From: Phallus indusiatus
Taxonomy: Eukaryota; Basidiomycota; Agaricomycetes; Phallales; Phallaceae
Direction: 5' to 3'
Assembly (NCBI GenBank): GCA_027605045.1
Contig: JAQFWX010000164.1
Coordinates: 1-64,000 of the forward strand
Length of the DNA stretch: 64,000 nucleotides
In this document: piece after piece, positions 8,650-16,934 of the stretch
Layout of the letters: the number at the start of each line of letters is the position of its first letter
How positions within the stretch are numbered: position 1 is the stretch's first letter
Translations under genes and position numbers: made by a program
The notes under the pieces: generated by a model
Database searches by the model: none
What the model was told of the DNA's origin: nothing
Seen by the model: the letters and a program-made list of their open reading frames with translations, nothing else

Positions 8650-9744
8650 TCAATCACTTTCGAATTCAGCTTCGACAATTTTTCTTTTCTGTTTCGTCGG
8701 ATTTGCTCGAGAGGAGCCGGGAGGTGGTTGAGGGGCTACGCGTCCTAAGTTGGTTTGAAATAGATTAATGGTATACGGAGCGAGCTTGGGGATGTAGAAA
8801 ACATACTTGTCGTTTCCCTTTCAGCTACGATCATGTGTTGAACGAGCGAGATTTGACCTTCTAATTCTTTAATGCGTTTCTAAGGAAATAGGTCATTAAT
8901 AGGGTGTAAAATATTAGGGTCATACTCACTTGAGCTTCTTCCAGCTCGTGCTTTCTCTCCTCAAACAATTCAACGGAGACTCCAGCTTCTCCATTAGTTT
9001 GGCCATGCTTCGTACTATTGATTTCGCTGGACGCCGACCCAGAAACGCTTGATTTAAATAGCTGGCAATTATGTGGCTGAGCACGTAAAGCTATCTATTC
9101 GAAAGCGTAAATTCAGAATAATGTTTAAGAAGCGAATACCGGCCGTGATCTACCTTTTTTAGAAGCCTTATTCCACGCATAGAACCTTCGTCTTCGGGCA
9201 AACTTTGAAGATTGATTTCGACGTCCGCTCCAATCGTTAACTTTATGAGGATATCTTGAGAAAAGTAGACGGATGATAGAAAGGGGACAAACTGAACGTA
9301 TATTTTTTGGCTGGCTATTGTCCGACCATCCTTTTATTGACAGTTCTCCGGAAATAATAAGACCAGCCAGCTTTTGAGCAAGGTTCTCAACATCTCTTGC
9401 TGTTGTTGGTTTTTTCTATAGAAATAATAAATCCCAGACGCGGCGACAGACATTAATACGTACAACCCGGCGAATCACATCTTCCGTAGACCATGATGCT
9501 TTCCACCATTGGTTTTCTTCAACGAGTCCCAGCTGAACATCCCAGTTTGCAACTCCAACTTCGCTTATGAGAACGAAAGAATTGAACGAATGATAAATGA
9601 CTAAGAAAAAAAAGAGGGAAATAGGTAAGTCTCAAAGTCGGTACTCTTTGGGATCCGTCGGCCTTACAGAGGCACTCCAATGCACTCGCCTTGTATTAAG
9701 CTGTCTAAAGCTCCGAAATTGTCAAATACTTCGATATGAGCCAT
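8650..9744 (-). CDS. PAXX-like protein, copy A (candidate XRCC4-superfamily end-joining factor)
   Basis: Read on the minus strand from ATG 9744, about seven exons can be joined, and each junction has the same phase as in copy B at 14819-15878. The start is MAHIEVFDNFGALDS. Later segments include GVANWDVQLGLVEENQWWK, LTIGADVEINLQSLPEDEG, a short heptad-like helix KRIKELEGQISLVQHMIVAE, and the tail NPTKQKRKIVEAEFESD. A ~125-residue head, a coiled coil and a basic/acidic C-terminal peptide match PAXX of the XRCC4/XLF superfamily. The tail has the NP, KK, V and F-acidic spacing of the Ku-binding peptide of animal PAXX. If so, it would act in nuclear non-homologous end joining. The gene and its paralogy are read from sequence; the PAXX identity is an inference. 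It could instead be an unrelated small coiled-coil protein. Confidence 0.72.
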
Positions 9745-10040
9745 TTTTGTAGTATTGTATAATTCAGACTTAGATCACTTTGAGTGGGGAAAAGAGGTCG
9801 AGCTGATCATGGCTTGAAAGTAAAATCTTTTTAACCTGCGCACGTGATGGACATTGGACATGGAGGACCGTCGATCGACGATGACATCGATGACAATGGA
9901 CACCGACAACGGCTCGGGCGTTTCTTTCGGACCTTGTTTCCTTTTTGTGAAGAAAAGCAGTTAAAAGGATACATTAGGTGTTCTTATTACAATTTGTCTG
10001 ATTACCCCTTTGAGCAATTACTACTTTAGCGATGGATTCG

Positions 10041-10998
10041 CTATAGCTTCAATCCCGCCGTATGCCAGAGCTGATGAAACTCCGCTGAATCATTGAGGAG
10101 GGGATACGGAACGTCTGGTTTAGGTCTACAAAGTCGTAGTTATTTTCATGATGACTCGTTCACCACCATCATCATCTAAACTTACACTCCCAAAAATTCG
10201 GCGAGAGGGCCCCAGCCCTCCTTCGCGTCAAAAATGAGAAGTTGGTCTGCAGGGATGACGCTCTTGACGTATTCATTATGTTTTTGCAGCTCCTCTTTGC
10301 AATGCGTGGCTAGACGGTCACCATGGTACAGATCTAAACCCTCCGTCTTTATCTTTGGCCGAAAATCCAGAGAAAAATGATACGTTACGAATGTAAGCAT
10401 CAGCCCAACGGAGGAAATGCTTATATTCTGGCTTGGATTCAAGTTGGTGCTTCTGGCCGTAAGCTACTAAAAGGGTCGTCTTCACGCTATGTTCCCATTT
10501 TTCTGGATCTCGATCGGTCTGTGGTATGTACATGTGAGTTTGAGAGTATGATATAAAGTCAAGAGTTTAGCACCAACCAGAATATATTTGGCTTTAGGGT
10601 ACGCAGCATAGATTTCCTTGGCCATTACTCCAATCGGCACATCAACTGCCGACCTGTGTCCGCGCAATATCTTGTCAAAGGTTTCGGGAGAGGTGTTCTT
10701 TCCTGGGATATAGATGTCGTGGTCTCACCAAAACATAAATTAGCGAAACAAACCTTCGATCATATCCGCCCACGTGGAGAAATCCTCGTGCATAGTGGGA
10801 CTTTGCATAGGATGATAGGCTGGCCCGAAACCTAGAATATCAAGCGCTTTCCATAAACTTGTCATCTGTTCGAAAGATTAATTAATTAATCTGTTGATTT
10901 TTGATTGGATAACATACCCCAGTTCGCCCGAGGCCGACCCCTATCACTTGGACGGATGCGGCGTTGGCTCTGCTTTCGCTGGAAGGTGTTGCCGACAT
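10041..10998 (-). CDS. Sulfotransfer_4-type P-loop protein, copy A
   Basis: Exons on the minus strand include 10998-10918, 10865-10754, 10702-10578, 10518 to about 10384, about 10352-10186 and 10125-10041. The nucleotide or PAPS-binding loop VIGVGLGRTG closes exon 1. MTSLWKALDILGFGPAYH follows, then VDVPIGVMAKEIYAAYPKAK, the TDRDPEKWEHS motif, and DQLLIFDAKEGWGPLAEFLG, ending VPKPDVPYPLLND. This order is typical of the large basidiomycete family annotated as sulfotransferase (Sulfotransfer_4) or, misleadingly, NAD-dependent epimerase. Substrate is unknown. The fourth intron must be only about 31-43 nt to restore frame, which is short, so mild decay or a misplaced junction is possible. Copy B at 12380-13327 is closely similar. 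Confidence 0.8.
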
Positions 10999-11537
10999 AC
11001 TTGGAATACTCGTTACTGAAATTGTACAGGACAGAGAGGCTTTTACACAAAGAGCAGCTTTTTATTACCCGGGCATTTATTTCCGAGGGGAAAGCACAGG
11101 ATGGGCTTTTTCTCCCGTTATCCCCATTCCCAGTCGACCGATTCTGTATCTCATTCTCGGCGTCACGGTCACTGATCACAATATCGATAGGGAGAAACGA
11201 ATGACATTGACATAAGATATTGAATGTATATGAAATGTGCTAGCAAGATGAAGACGGCTAGCGTATTCGATTGGTGCGCTACATAATTCAAGTCAGTGGG
11301 TCGGAATTGAAAATGAAGGTGAATTATTACTTGGCCTCGAGCTCATTGCTCTTACATTGTCTATATGACAAACTCGTCCATTTCAGTTGATACTCCGTAC
11401 TTACTTTCAAGTGCTCGGCGGAGACTCCACAGCGAGCGACACAGGCATGTGTTAATTTATACGAATTTTGCTCTAATTGATTCACCAGTGCATGAGGATT
11501 GATATACCGAAGCATGTTTCGCATTAGCACTTGTGAG

Positions 11538-11595
11538 ACTCACAGCGGGATTTGATCCGAGGACCTCTGGTTAGTGTGATTTGGGTATTTATAGG
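11538..11595 (-). repeat. tRNA-like fragment, copy 1
   Basis: On the minus strand this matches the element at 14487-14570 over about 55 bases, including the sequence around the possible pol III B box (GATCAAATCC region). The A-box half is degraded here. It is too short and diverged to be a functional tRNA. Confidence 0.45.
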
Positions 11596-11610
11596 TCCTC
11601 CACGGCAATG

Positions 11611-11815
11611 ACGGGCTATTGGACCATCCCTTTATTGACAGAACTCCCAGAACGATCAAATTGCGAGTTTTTCAGCAAAACTTCAGGTTTATTTTTCAAA
11701 AGGACCGTTGAGATAATTCAATGATTACAAAAGAGATTTATACCAGCTTCAAGTTGGCGTATAACATCCTCCTTGGACCATAATCATGCCCGATCGATTG
11801 ATCCTTTCCACCCAT
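11611..11815 (-). pseudogene. Eroded third PAXX-like copy (exon 2/3 remnant)
   Basis: About 205 bp are clearly homologous to the end of exon 2, the intron and exon 3 of PAXX-like copy B (about 15480-15690). The match includes the shared string ggctattggaccatccctt and the intron segment gagataattcaatgattaca. The flanking exons are absent and small indels break the reading frame. It is a gene fragment, not a functional gene. Confidence 0.8.
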
Positions 11816-12340
11816 AGCTTCACTCACTGGGAGGTTTCATGGATATCTATTAACGGTTGACGATACATCGGAAAAACTAATACTGATTCACCTGATTCAG
11901 AGACCTTGAATAACCCTTCAGACTATTTCTTTCTATTTCTTTGGTCTGATAGTCAGCGATTGATCGCGAGTAGAAGCGACAGCGTATCCCTGTTGAGAGG
12001 ATATATTCGAAAGACTTGAAAAGCATGCCTCTCACAGATTTCTCATCTGGTTCAGCGCAATAAGCTTAAATCCCAACCCTAGCTGATAACTCAGTGAGAA
12101 TCACTAGCAGGGAAGGCGAAGACGAATGGAATGGGGCCTCGATGAACATGGGCTCTCAACGTCAACTTTTCAACCAGCTCTCCGATCTGACAGAGATATG
12201 CGATTGCTGAGATCCAAATACATAAATAACCACCTTTTGATTCAAGTGGACATGGGTCTCGACTTATTAACACACATTTGTATCCACTGATCACAGCATG
12301 CTGCCATGACGAGGAAGTCAACCTTTACTTTATTACAATC
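11816..12340 (+). repeat. Diverged ~500 bp repeat R1, copy 1
   Basis: This segment aligns in the same orientation with 16935-17430. Conserved blocks are actgggag-tttcatggatat, cgcgagtagaagcgacagcg, a cacagattt-tcat block, agcgcaata, and tgatcacagcatgctg. No intact reading frame is shared by both copies, so it looks like a non-coding or eroded part of the duplicated unit. Confidence 0.7.
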
Positions 12341-12379
12341 CATCTGATTATCCCTTCGAATAGTTAACATTTTGGGCAA

Positions 12380-13327
12380 TCAGTCTGCTATTGTATCGCT
12401 CTCTTTATACTCGTGAAACGCCACTGAATCATTGAGGTGAGGGAACGGAACATCTGGTTTGGGCCTGCGAAGTGGTTATTTCATGATGATTCCTTCATCA
12501 ACATAAACTGTTTGTAACTCACACTCCCAAAAATTCTGCAAGAGGACCCCAGCCCTCCTTAACGTCGAAAATGAGAAGTTGGTCTGCAGGGATAACGCTC
12601 TTAACGTATTCATTATGTTTGTGCAGCTCCTCTTTGCAATGTGTAGCTAGACGACCGCCGTGGTACAGATCTAAATACTCGATCTCTATTTTTGGTGAAA
12701 ATCCAGAGAGAGGAAAACAAGTTACCAAAGTATCCATCAGCCCAACGGAGGAAATCCTTAAATTTTGGTATGGATTCAATTTCGCTCTTCTGGCTATGCG
12801 TCACTAGAACGGTCGTCTTTACGCTATGTTCCCATTTTCCTGGATCACGAACGGTCTATGATATGTGATATGAGTTTGAGAATATAATAATACATCAAGA
12901 ATTTTACACCAACCAAAATATATTTGGCTTTAGGGTACGCAGTGTAGATCTCCTTGGCCATTACTCCAATCGGCGCATCCATTGCCGCCCTATATCCGTG
13001 CAATACCTTGTCAAAAGCTTCGGGAGAGATGTTCTTTCCTGGGATAGATGTCACAGTCTTACTAAAACATAAATTAGTGAAACAAACCTTCGATCATATC
13101 CGCCCACGTGGAAAAATCCTCGTGCATAGTGGGACTTTGCATAGGATGATAGGCTGGCCCGAAACCTAGTATATCAAGCGCTTTCCAGAGACTCGTCGTC
13201 TGATTAAAAGAATAAATAACGTGTTGATTTTCATAGGATAACATACCCCAGTTCTCCCGAGGCCGACCCCTATCACTTCGATAGATGCAGACTTGGGTCT
13301 GCTTTCGCTGGAAGGTGTTGCCAACAT
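12380..13327 (-). CDS. Sulfotransfer_4-type P-loop protein, copy B
   Basis: Minus-strand gene with the same exon plan as copy A at 10041-10998. The start reads MLATPSSESRPKSASIEV and runs into the P-loop IGVGLGRTG at the end of exon 1. Then come TSLWKALDILGFGPAYH, DAPIGVMAKEIYTAYPKAK, TVRDPGKWEHSVKTTVL, RLATHCKEELHKHNEYVK and DQLLIFDVKEGWGPLAEF. The last exon gives VPKPDVPFPHLND. The intron after the WADGY segment uses GTAACT and is about 40 nt. The family is usually annotated as a sulfotransferase-fold protein; the substrate is unknown. The C-terminus after the shared VPKPDVP motif differs from copy A, ending in a short charged tail. Confidence 0.8.
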
Positions 13328-14486
13328 ACCTGGAATGTTCATTACTGAAAGTCGGAGTTCGTATGGAGCAAAAATTTACACAAAGAACAGCTTTATACTG
13401 TATCACCCCGGCATTCATGTCCGAGGGGAAAGTACGGCTTTCTCTCCCATTATCATGATCCTGATTTGGTCAGTTTTATATCATGTGAAGACGGTTGGCG
13501 TATTCCAGGCACTACATAATTTCACTCAGCGGGTCGGAACAGAGTGTTGGTGAGCATAAAGGTGAACTATTACTTGGCCTCATTGCTCTTACGTATGATA
13601 AACTCATCCATTTGGGTTAATTACGCCCGGATACGCCGTAACTACTTGCAAGCGCTCGGTGAGGACTCCGCAGCGAGCGACATGCGTGTTATTTATCTCT
13701 AAATGGCATAGTATAGCATCGCGCCGTCTATATATCAATCAAATAAGATTGATCTGTTTTTTATAGATAGAAGATTTCATATACGTACTACATACACTGG
13801 CAAGGATTTTCTTCGCTTTCCCCATGATTGAATCAAAAACCCGCGGAACTTCTCCAGCGCTGTCGTTCGGTAGATTTACAATAACAGTGTCATGTGCAGT
13901 CCAGTGTGGAAAATTGAGTGCGGGGGATTCAATTGTTCTATGGCTTCGAAAAAAAAAATTGGAAAAGTTTCAAAAGAGCTAGTAGCGCAAGTATGACCTG
14001 GACGTGACTGAGCTCCGGGTGACGGGCCGGTTATCCTTTTCAATGCGATGCAGAACATTAGTTGCTAAATATACCAGTAGTAAGACCGACCCGCGAACGT
14101 TTTTCAGCTTTTCTTTTCTATTATCATTGATCATAAAAGTTGACGGAGGCTTTTTGTAGACAATTTCTCCAAACTAACTAGTAACACAGTACGTATCACG
14201 ATCCTGTTCTACCAGGTAACCAAATCTTTTAATTTCTTTGTAAAAAAACATATTCTTAATGACACGTCCGTTGCTTTTGATGGCGTTATTCATGGGGCAG
14301 TAGAATACAACTTGGTAAGATTTTGATTGATAGTGAGTTTTCAGCGAAGAAATTGGGAGTGCAATGTCACGCTTTTATTCATTCGTTTGGTGACAGATAT
14401 TCGACCTCTCCGAACTCTCCGTTGGTTCATCCTGCTACCAATACGACAAATGGGGCTGTTGTATCGATATTCTTCACAACTTAGAG
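13328..14486. other. Intergenic part of the duplicated array
   Basis: The first ~370 bp (to about 13700) are homologous to 10999-11450, the upstream part of copy A, including the shared agcgctcgg / agcgagcgaca sequences. The remaining ~780 bp have no counterpart between copy A and its tRNA-like fragment and could be an insertion. No gene is seen. Confidence 0.5.
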
Positions 14487-14570
14487 GGACTCACAGCGTG
14501 ATTCGATCAAAGGACCTTTGGTTTGTGTGATTTGGGCATTTATCCCGCTGCGCCATTGCACAGTGCATAG
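14487..14570 (-). repeat. tRNA-like fragment, copy 2 (possible tRNA-derived SINE)
   Basis: On the minus strand the sequence tggcgcagcggga fits the pol III A box (TRGCNNAGYNGG) and gatcgaatcac about 35 bases on resembles a B box. An anticodon arm cannot be closed convincingly, so I do not call a tRNA. A diverged copy lies at 11538-11595 in the same position relative to the PAXX-like sequence. Confidence 0.5.
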
Positions 14571-14818
14571 CTAGTGAATTTTGTCTAATACCTATGATTG
14601 ATCGTCGTTATCACTGATTGTCCGACGGACACAAAGCACTTGAGCGCAATTGGAATTAGAACATTTTATAATTATTGTGCAGCTAAAGAGCACGAAAAAA
14701 AGTGGGGATCTTCAAGCTCAGATACATAATTTATATTCAGGTGGTCAATTATTATGTTATGTAAGTATAAACACTCTATTTGCATTTGTGAAATCTTGAC
14801 TTGGTATGTATATTGTGA

Positions 14819-15878
14819 TTAGTCACTTTCAAATTCGGCTTCAACTATTTTTCTTTTTTGTCTTGTCGGGTTTGCTCGTGAAACGCCACGAGGTGTTTTG
14901 GGAGCTACCGGTCCTACGACGTACGTGTAATTCATTGGTCACACAAGGAAAGGTATAAACAGAACATGACAGAATCATACTTTTTATTTCTCTTTCAGCG
15001 AAGATCATTTCTTTTACCGCGGAAACTTGACTTTCCAGTTCTTTAATGCGTTTCTAAAAATACTTTGACTAGCTCGATCGAATACTGAGTCATCGGGTAT
15101 TTACCTGTGCTTCTCCTAATCCTTGTCCTTTTTCCTCGAGCGTTTCGGCATTCGAGGGAGCCCCAAGTTGTACATCTCGTTGCTTATTGACTTTACTCAA
15201 CACAGGCTCGGCAGCGCCTGATTTGAATAATTGACAGCCATGAGGTTGAGCACGAAGAGCTATCTATACTAGAAGGCTCAATACAACATCGTTTCGAGGA
15301 GCTCGCCCAAGACTTGCTTTTTTCAAAAGCTCTATTGCACGCGTGGCACTCTCATCATCCGGTAATCTTTGTAAATCGACCTCAATTTCCGGACCAATCG
15401 TTAACTGTTCATAAGTAATTATCAAAGGATGAAAGAGTAACACAGGCAAACAGACCTAACCTGTAGATCTTTTGACCGGCTATTGGACCATCCCTTTATT
15501 AACAGATCTCCCGAAACGACCAAACTTGTCAGTTTTTCAGCAAGATCTTCAATATCCCTCTCCACTACAGGTTTACTCTTCAAAAGGACCGCTGAGATAA
15601 TTCAATGATTACAAAAAATTCATACGTACAACGTGGCGTATGACATCTTCCTTGGACCATGATCCTTTCCACCATTGATTTTCTTCGACGAGTCCTAGCT
15701 CAACGCTCCAATCCGCAATCCCAACCTCACTTATCAAAACAAAACAGGATATAGAGTGGTAGACGACTGAAAATACCCCGGTCCATAAAGTCGGCGCGTT
15801 TGTAAAACCGACCTGACACTCGCCTTGCATTAACCCGTCCAAAGCTCCAAAGTTGTCAAATACTTCAATACTGGCCAT
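14819..15878 (-). CDS. PAXX-like protein, copy B (candidate XRCC4-superfamily end-joining factor)
   Basis: Seven minus-strand exons from ATG 15878 to TAA 14821-14819 give about 230 residues. Segments in order: MASIEVFDNFGALDGLMQG; EVGIADWSVELGLVEENQWW; RDIEDLAEKLTSLVVSGDLL; LTIGPEIEVDLQRLPDDES; IALRAQPHGCQLFKSG; the coiled coil KRIKELESQVSAVKEMIFAE; and the tail NPTRQKRKIVEAEFESD. Exon phases equal those of copy A at 8650-9744, which fixes the model. The intron after LLKK (15317-15264) starts GCAAGT, a GC-AG intron, where copy A has GT. Head plus short coiled coil plus a Ku-binding-like tail suggests a PAXX-type non-homologous end-joining factor. The first and last exons are the most conserved between the copies. 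Function is inferred; the gene structure is well supported. Confidence 0.75.
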
Positions 15879-16934
15879 AGAATAATATTCAAAAAATGCC
15901 TAGAGTTTGAATGAAGAACACGGATTGAAACCTGGTGGTACAAACTAGATCTGATCAGAACGTTGGAGTCTATGGACTCCCGAGAGTATTGACATCAGTT
16001 TCCACTAGTGTGTGACGTATGTGACGCGTGACGCGTGACGGACTTGTGTTCCAGCCTTACTAAGACTATTCATAAACATTAAACCCTAACATCATCCAAA
16101 CTCAACCCACGAAAATACAAATCTCACATTTCACCTAAGTATTTTAGGTTTTGCATATAACAACAAAACGCTAGACGATGTTGTAGTGCAAAAGAATTCC
16201 AAGGGCTTGCTCATGGAACAGCGAACAGACCAACGGATAGATTGACGAGATCGACAAACGAACCAACCAGACCAACGAAAAACGAACCAACCAAGCCAAT
16301 GAACGAATGAACCAACCAACCGAGACCAAACAAAGGGATCAACGAGCACTCAGCAGACTAACGCAAATAGACCAACGAAAAGAAAAACGGCGTTAAGGCT
16401 GTAACTGAAGAATCCCACCCACGAAAACTTCGACGAAACAGAAACAAGTCGGGTAATAGGCGATTTGGGCTGGTTGTATGCGCGAGTTTTTGTGGAGAAT
16501 GTCTCAGGAACGATCTGGTATTGAACTTCCCTACCCTGATTCCCCTTCTGATCGTTCCTTGGTGCCAGCGGATTCCAACAAGAATGAAAGTTGGAGAATG
16601 TGTCATAATTTTCGCGCGTTAAACAAGTACACATAGTACCCAGCTTCCCCAACGCTGATCTGAAAGCAAAACAAAATAAGTTAGCAGGACACCAATGGTA
16701 TGTTGGTCTCAACCTCGCCCCCGCATACCACGCTCAGGCTATTCCGATGAGACGATCCAATTGGGGGCCGGGCCTTACTGCATTCGACGTCCCAGACAAG
16801 GGCTTGCCCATGGAACGGCGAACAGACCAGTAGATAGATCGACAGTGGTGTATTCATGTGCTGATACGCTGATAGCTTTATAGATTAATCCTGCCAAACT
16901 ACCTTGTATATTTCTGAATTCCTTATTTCCTAAT
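15879..16934. other. Intergenic stretch with low-complexity ACCAACGA-type repeats
   Basis: About 1.05 kb without a convincing gene. Positions 16218-16380 are filled with irregular repeats of (gaacc)aaccaacga type, so the long antisense frame there is a by-product of low complexity. A ~50 bp imperfect direct repeat (agggcttgc-catggaac-gcgaacagacc) occurs at 16199-16254 and again at 16796-16846. Confidence 0.5.

Follow-up and report, generated by a model that had tools for sequence, protein, structure and literature searches.

The XRCC4 superfamily is defined by a seven-stranded head with a helix-turn-helix between strands 4 and 5, and its member CCDC61 carries one more helix, placed between strands 5 and 6 (PMC7267773). 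Vertebrates are described as having PAXX, yeast and most invertebrates as lacking it; a co-evolution with DNA-PKcs and Artemis is suggested, and the human protein is reported to have no stable association with ligase IV (PMC4339890). A coral PAXX (there XLS) has been modelled (PMC4423191), and PAXX is known from a plant as well (PMC12707071). Human PAXX binds Ku70 via residues 177-204; S184A, N187E and the V199A+F201A double mutant abolished peptide binding, and every tested mutation lowers recruitment (PMC10413649). A report of a fungal PAXX did not surface in the openly licensed literature that we searched, and a mention in Khan and Ochi 2023 or Ochi 2015 is possible. Here we describe two genes, A and B, in a 64,000-nucleotide stretch of Phallus indusiatus DNA (contig JAQFWX010000164.1; hereafter the window), which a preliminary description made from the letters had put forward as tandem PAXX-like paralogs. 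We consider it likely that A and B are fungal PAXX-type members of the XRCC4 superfamily, acting as Ku70-docking accessories of end joining.

Both genes lie on the minus strand, where the preliminary description had placed them, and have seven exons each:

8650..9744, minus strand: gene A, candidate PAXX-type protein of 244 amino acids (AA) (exons 9744-9690, 9600-9464, 9415-9293, 9240-9154, 9094-8930, 8879-8807, 8744-8650)
14819..15878, minus strand: gene B, candidate PAXX-type protein of 246 AA (exons 15878-15824, 15766-15626, 15591-15461, 15404-15318, 15263-15105, 15053-14981, 14913-14819)

The corrected models (735 and 741 coding nucleotides in A and B, respectively, including the stop) replace the ~230 residues proposed earlier, and the intron phases, described as the same, agree at five of six introns (1,0,0,0,0,1 in A and 1,1,0,0,0,1 in B), the exception being intron 2. 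The spliced frame is open in both genes; in A all six acceptors are AG and the donors are GT except at intron 1 (GC), and in B GC donors stand at introns 1 and 4. Intron 1 is GC-AG in both genes, with the donor GCGAGT, and the exon 1/2 junction was fixed with the help of relatives in the database, where it reads LIQ-V-(I/L)-Y. Two small genes thus carry three GC-AG introns (donors at 9689 in A, and at 15823 and 15317 in B).

The proteins are paralogous, with a similarity beyond chance (154/240 aligned residues identical), and they belong to a family conserved across mushrooms; both the duplication and this conservation are confirmed. With B as the query, five proteins were returned, from Clathrus, Sphaerobolus, Hysterangium, Ramaria and Gautieria, and a family profile search (E up to 10) found at least 56 proteins, all with E < 1e-17, a lower bound because scoring was limited to the 7994 candidates with the most shared words, and other fungi may have members too. 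The named organisms among these relatives (e.g. Suillus, Mycena, Trametes, Coprinopsis and Hydnum) are mushroom-forming fungi. A Pfam domain is found on none of the 56, and their names, where present, read 'hypothetical' or 'uncharacterized'; the Coprinopsis cinerea member is CC1G_03291. The protein P0055 (94% identical to the Hydnum relative) has an extra C-terminal stretch ending VKAVDFASDAE, which resembles a second F-with-acidic motif.

The C-terminal peptides of both proteins are exactly those quoted in the preliminary description:

8650..8712, minus strand: tail of gene A, SRANPTKQKRKIVEAEFESD plus stop, candidate Ku70-binding motif by its sequence and its likeness to human PAXX
14819..14881, minus strand: tail of gene B, SRANPTRQKRKIVEAEFESD plus stop, candidate Ku70-binding motif by its sequence and its likeness to human PAXX

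We found that both tails share S, N, P and F with S184, N187, P188 and F201 of human PAXX. Among the 56 fungal proteins, S is kept in 55, and N, P, F and the Glu before F in all 56; at the position of V199, 49 have Ile, Leu, Val or Met and the other 7 have Ala. A PAXX-derived pattern, written after both families had been seen, fits 45/56 relatives in its strict form and 52/56 when relaxed to allow Ala, as well as 86 of the 120 listed PAXX entries, and shuffled fungal C-termini fitted it 10 (strict) or 15 (relaxed) times in 1,120,000. Of the order of features claimed earlier for the tail, A and B keep NP and F, and also have S, in a tail that aligns with those of mammalian PAXX; V is replaced by Ala in both.

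The two families were also compared by profile-profile alignment. A search with human PAXX gave 411 proteins, of which the best 120 (mammals, where named) were used for comparison, and hhalign was run with the 76 of these 120 that have 195-212 residues against all 56 fungal proteins. Without gappy columns, the full-length alignment gave P 0.0036, with 0/200 column shuffles scoring as high; controls with reversed profiles gave P 0.15 and 0.11. The heads alone gave P 0.0063 (0/150 shuffles as high, the best shuffle being close, 21.4 vs. 22.4), with the fungal RWWRGSW lying opposite the ELWSTCF stretch of PAXX. The C-terminal 60 residues, unanchored, gave P 0.015 (0/200 shuffles), the 20 aligned columns being the S-NP-basic half with the F outside. 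Tails cut by their own NP...F motif (56/56 fungal and 94/120 listed PAXX proteins) gave P 0.00086 (0/300 shuffles), in a test that is partly circular because of the motif anchoring.

The predicted fold points the same way. AlphaFold2 (AF2) models were available for two relatives of the window proteins, one of them from Ramaria, and both contain the seven strands and the helix-turn-helix of the superfamily. The head and the short coiled coil, which had been guesses, are supported by these models, which show a head plus short coiled coil and not another fold. In the Ramaria model a helix (122-142) leaves the head and is followed by a stretch with a predicted local distance difference test (pLDDT) score below 50, and in the second model a helix (104-124) is followed by a break; in both, the helix leaving the head ends after about 20 residues, with a low-confidence linker next. 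In a VIA structural comparison, Arabidopsis PAXX (8p26) was the best match for both models, at 8-10% identity.

The genome also contains matches to other end-joining proteins. Ku family matches were found on contigs C165/C195 and C13/C179/C180; the joined frames of C13 match XRCC6 (Ku70) chains (E 3.6e-23 to 9.7e-21), and Arg stands opposite both R165 and R517 of the human protein, in segments that match weakly on their own. The C165 frames look, by eye, like Ku80. An XLF gene lies at C127:15700-17000, where the joined exons match PF09302 with 31.4 bits (cut-off 24.6; a single exon scores 20.2), and the PAXX-type family therefore coexists with an XLF gene in the same genome. A frame downstream at this XLF gene ends in a basic GGKRF. 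Nothing in the genome matched PF15384, PF06632, PF08163 (DNA-PKcs) or PF11411 (ligase IV) in family searches whose control genomes were silent too, so absence is not implied; the argument that DNA-PKcs is missing comes instead from the literature, where it is stated to be absent from Dikarya, including mushrooms (PMC8549938).

We infer that these PAXX-type proteins dimerise, bind Ku70 and have a role in repair. The N-terminal seven-stranded head and short coiled coil would form a dimer, and a disordered linker would join them to the conserved C-terminal tail. This tail would probably dock in the groove between the von Willebrand domain of Ku70 and the Ku core, which is where the tail of human PAXX docks, and the dimer could then bridge or stabilise two Ku-bound DNA ends in non-homologous end joining, alongside XLF. 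What the analysis itself shows are the gene structures, the mushroom-wide conservation, the predicted fold of the relatives, the tail similarity and the presence of Ku70 and XLF in the genome.

Several results weigh against this PAXX-type reading. PF15384, the Pfam model for PAXX, matched none of A, B, seven aligned members of the family, P0055 and P0056, and it is not among the matches listed for 47 relatives (25 of 47 weak families are listed); human PAXX, as a positive control, scored 299.5 bits. PF15384 was trained on PAXX sequences in order to detect them and does not describe a mechanism. In the profile search proposed in the preliminary description, the window proteins matched neither PF15384, which counts against PAXX, nor PF06632 (XRCC4). 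Pfam and PDB searches with single sequences gave nothing of value, and profiles of 7 rows, 47 rows and the tail, run against PDB sequences with E up to 10, did not retrieve PAXX. The full-length hhalign comparison gave P 0.018-0.027 when untrimmed and P 0.62 in global mode. The place of V199 is Ala in both A and B, and the N-to-F spacing is 13 in the window tails vs. 14 in human PAXX. On the Ku70 side, H163 lies opposite Leu and F471 opposite Met (by eye), both in segments that are weak matches alone (domain E 0.13 and 21). We do not formally file the family as PAXX, because PF15384 does not recognise it and both window proteins have exchanged a residue of the motif; of the earlier identification, the fold, the short coiled coil and the tail order still speak for it.

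The structural rankings are also mixed, and they bring in the other members of the superfamily. In the VIA lists, XRCC4 chains are only 1.5 Z units behind Arabidopsis PAXX for the first model, where they stand above human PAXX; for the second model, the distance to Arabidopsis PAXX is 1.2-1.4 Z units. The main rival is a mushroom XRCC4 (Lif1-type), whose coiled coil would wrap the ligase IV BRCT linker while the tail does something else, and it holds this place because no XRCC4 gene was identified elsewhere. We consider it unlikely: XRCC4 has a long continuous coiled-coil stalk, whereas no such stalk is present in either model, in which the helix gives way to the linker; in addition, a PF06632 match is absent and the tail carries PAXX features.

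In the raw Foldseek list, CCDC61, XLF and SAS-6 chains rank first (CCDC61 with E 1.5e-4), and PAXX chains begin at rank 12 (9cq3_H, judged PAXX) and 16 (8p26). This ranking, together with the shortness of the PAXX tail similarity, favours another scaffold of the XRCC4 superfamily (SAS-6/CCDC61-like or new), with a tail partner other than Ku. We hold this to be quite unlikely, as the CCDC61-type extra helix is absent from both models, in which a loop joins strands 5 and 6; in both VIA lists, SAS-6 and CCDC61 reach no row as high as the best ones of PAXX; the alignment of the C-terminus to mammalian PAXX scores above shuffles; and mushrooms are not known to have centrioles. The XLF chains among the Foldseek matches would suit a third explanation, a fungal XLF (Nej1-type), but the separate XLF gene in the genome means that the PAXX-type protein is not simply the fungal XLF, and the window proteins do not match PF09302 (XLF); we regard this explanation as very improbable. 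We retain the PAXX-type reading as the likely one.

The history of the locus can be read from its copies. Three versions of it occur in the genome (67 Mb, 206 contigs), on contigs C73 (the window), C81 and C111; all of them contain A, B and the remains of a third copy, and DNA and protein searches of the genome found matches at these three loci only (12 each):

11609..11785, minus strand: truncated third copy, a relic (end of exon 2, intron 2 and part of exon 3) that aligns to gene B 15473-15664

Relative to gene B, the relic has an 18-base gap and AA where the exon 3 acceptor AG is expected, and it is common to all three versions (C81:65321-65497 and C111:1376278-1376454 besides the window). 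C73 (~75 kb) and C81 (~72 kb) are short contigs that are >99% identical in both genes, and C111, a contig of 2.7 Mb, differs by 2-4% in the two genes (6% for B in a separate genome search); the three-fold locus looks like haplotype contigs of a dikaryon.

Gene B is open, with the same exon layout, in all three versions, and gene A likewise has an open frame in each, provided that its window copy splices at the next donor. The window copy is without two bases at the exon 3 donor (about 9293-9300) that are present in the C81 and C111 copies, so the next donor (GTTTGT) is needed to keep the frame, and the difference probably shifts the donor by a few bases. We rejected the possibility that this makes gene A a pseudogene, since splicing at the next donor brings back the frame, the copies on C81 and C111 are open with their own donor, and the differences between copies of A are nearly all silent.

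Between A and B, dS is 1.37 (near saturation) and dN is 0.24, a ratio of 0.175, from which both copies appear to have been mostly kept under constraint. Between copies of gene A we counted 5 silent/1 replacement and 6 silent/1 replacement changes; for gene B the counts were 1 silent/1 replacement (C73 vs. C81) and 6 silent/12 replacement (C73 vs. C111, ratio 0.56), a constraint weaker than for A in changes too few to conclude from. A tree of 19 rows pairs A with B as sisters (95/86) and puts Clathrus beside them (100/98), the Clathrus entry being without the N-terminus; this placement suggests that the duplication came after the split from Clathrus.

The term 'tandem', used earlier, is loose: A and B are neighbouring duplicates, but the relic and two other genes lie between them:

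10179-11021: Sulfotransfer_4 (PF17784) gene
12516-13350: Sulfotransfer_4 (PF17784) gene

The Sulfotransfer_4 blocks are more alike at the DNA level than those of A and B (82-90% vs. 71-84%), and their duplication therefore looks younger. A reading frame for a DHHC palmitoyltransferase (PF01529; 7325-8005, plus strand) adjoins gene A, and a 47-base direct repeat (87% identical; 16200-16246 and 16797-16843) lies near an ACCAAC-like low-complexity sequence. ARAGORN found no tRNA genes in the window.

If the PAXX-type reading is true, a conserved mushroom PAXX in fungi reported to be without DNA-PKcs (PMC8549938) would allow a DNA-PKcs-independent function of PAXX to be tested in laboratory fungi; it would also give a name to an anonymous gene family (e.g. 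CC1G_03291), one that may affect the efficiency of gene targeting in mushrooms. The further idea, that PAXX is a Ku tether of ancient origin with an original task that does not depend on DNA-PKcs, we hold to be evenly balanced.

Compared with known systems, A and B share with XLF/Nej1 the superfamily fold, and C-terminal motifs that bind Ku have been described for both kinds (PMC10413649); they differ in that the genome has a separate XLF gene and that the A/B tail end is acidic, as against a basic stretch ending in Phe. From XRCC4 they are set apart by the missing long stalk of the fungal models and the missing PF06632 match. Arabidopsis PAXX (8p26; Khan and Ochi 2023), compared by structure alone, is the best VIA match of both models and comes from a host without DNA-PKcs (PMC8549938), but the structural alignments reach only 8-10% identity, and plants are said to be without the XLF that this fungus has (PMC12707071). 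Unlike human PAXX/C9orf142 (PF15384; 3wtd, 3wtf, 4wja, 7zwa), the fungal family goes unrecognised by PF15384, is one residue shorter from N to F and has Ala at V199 in the window copies; a second predicted helix in the fungal linker (175-202 in the Ramaria model) is listed as a further difference, judged from the fungal side alone. With human PAXX, the family shares the head fold, the coiled coil and a C-terminal motif made up of S, NP, basic residues and an F flanked by acidic ones.
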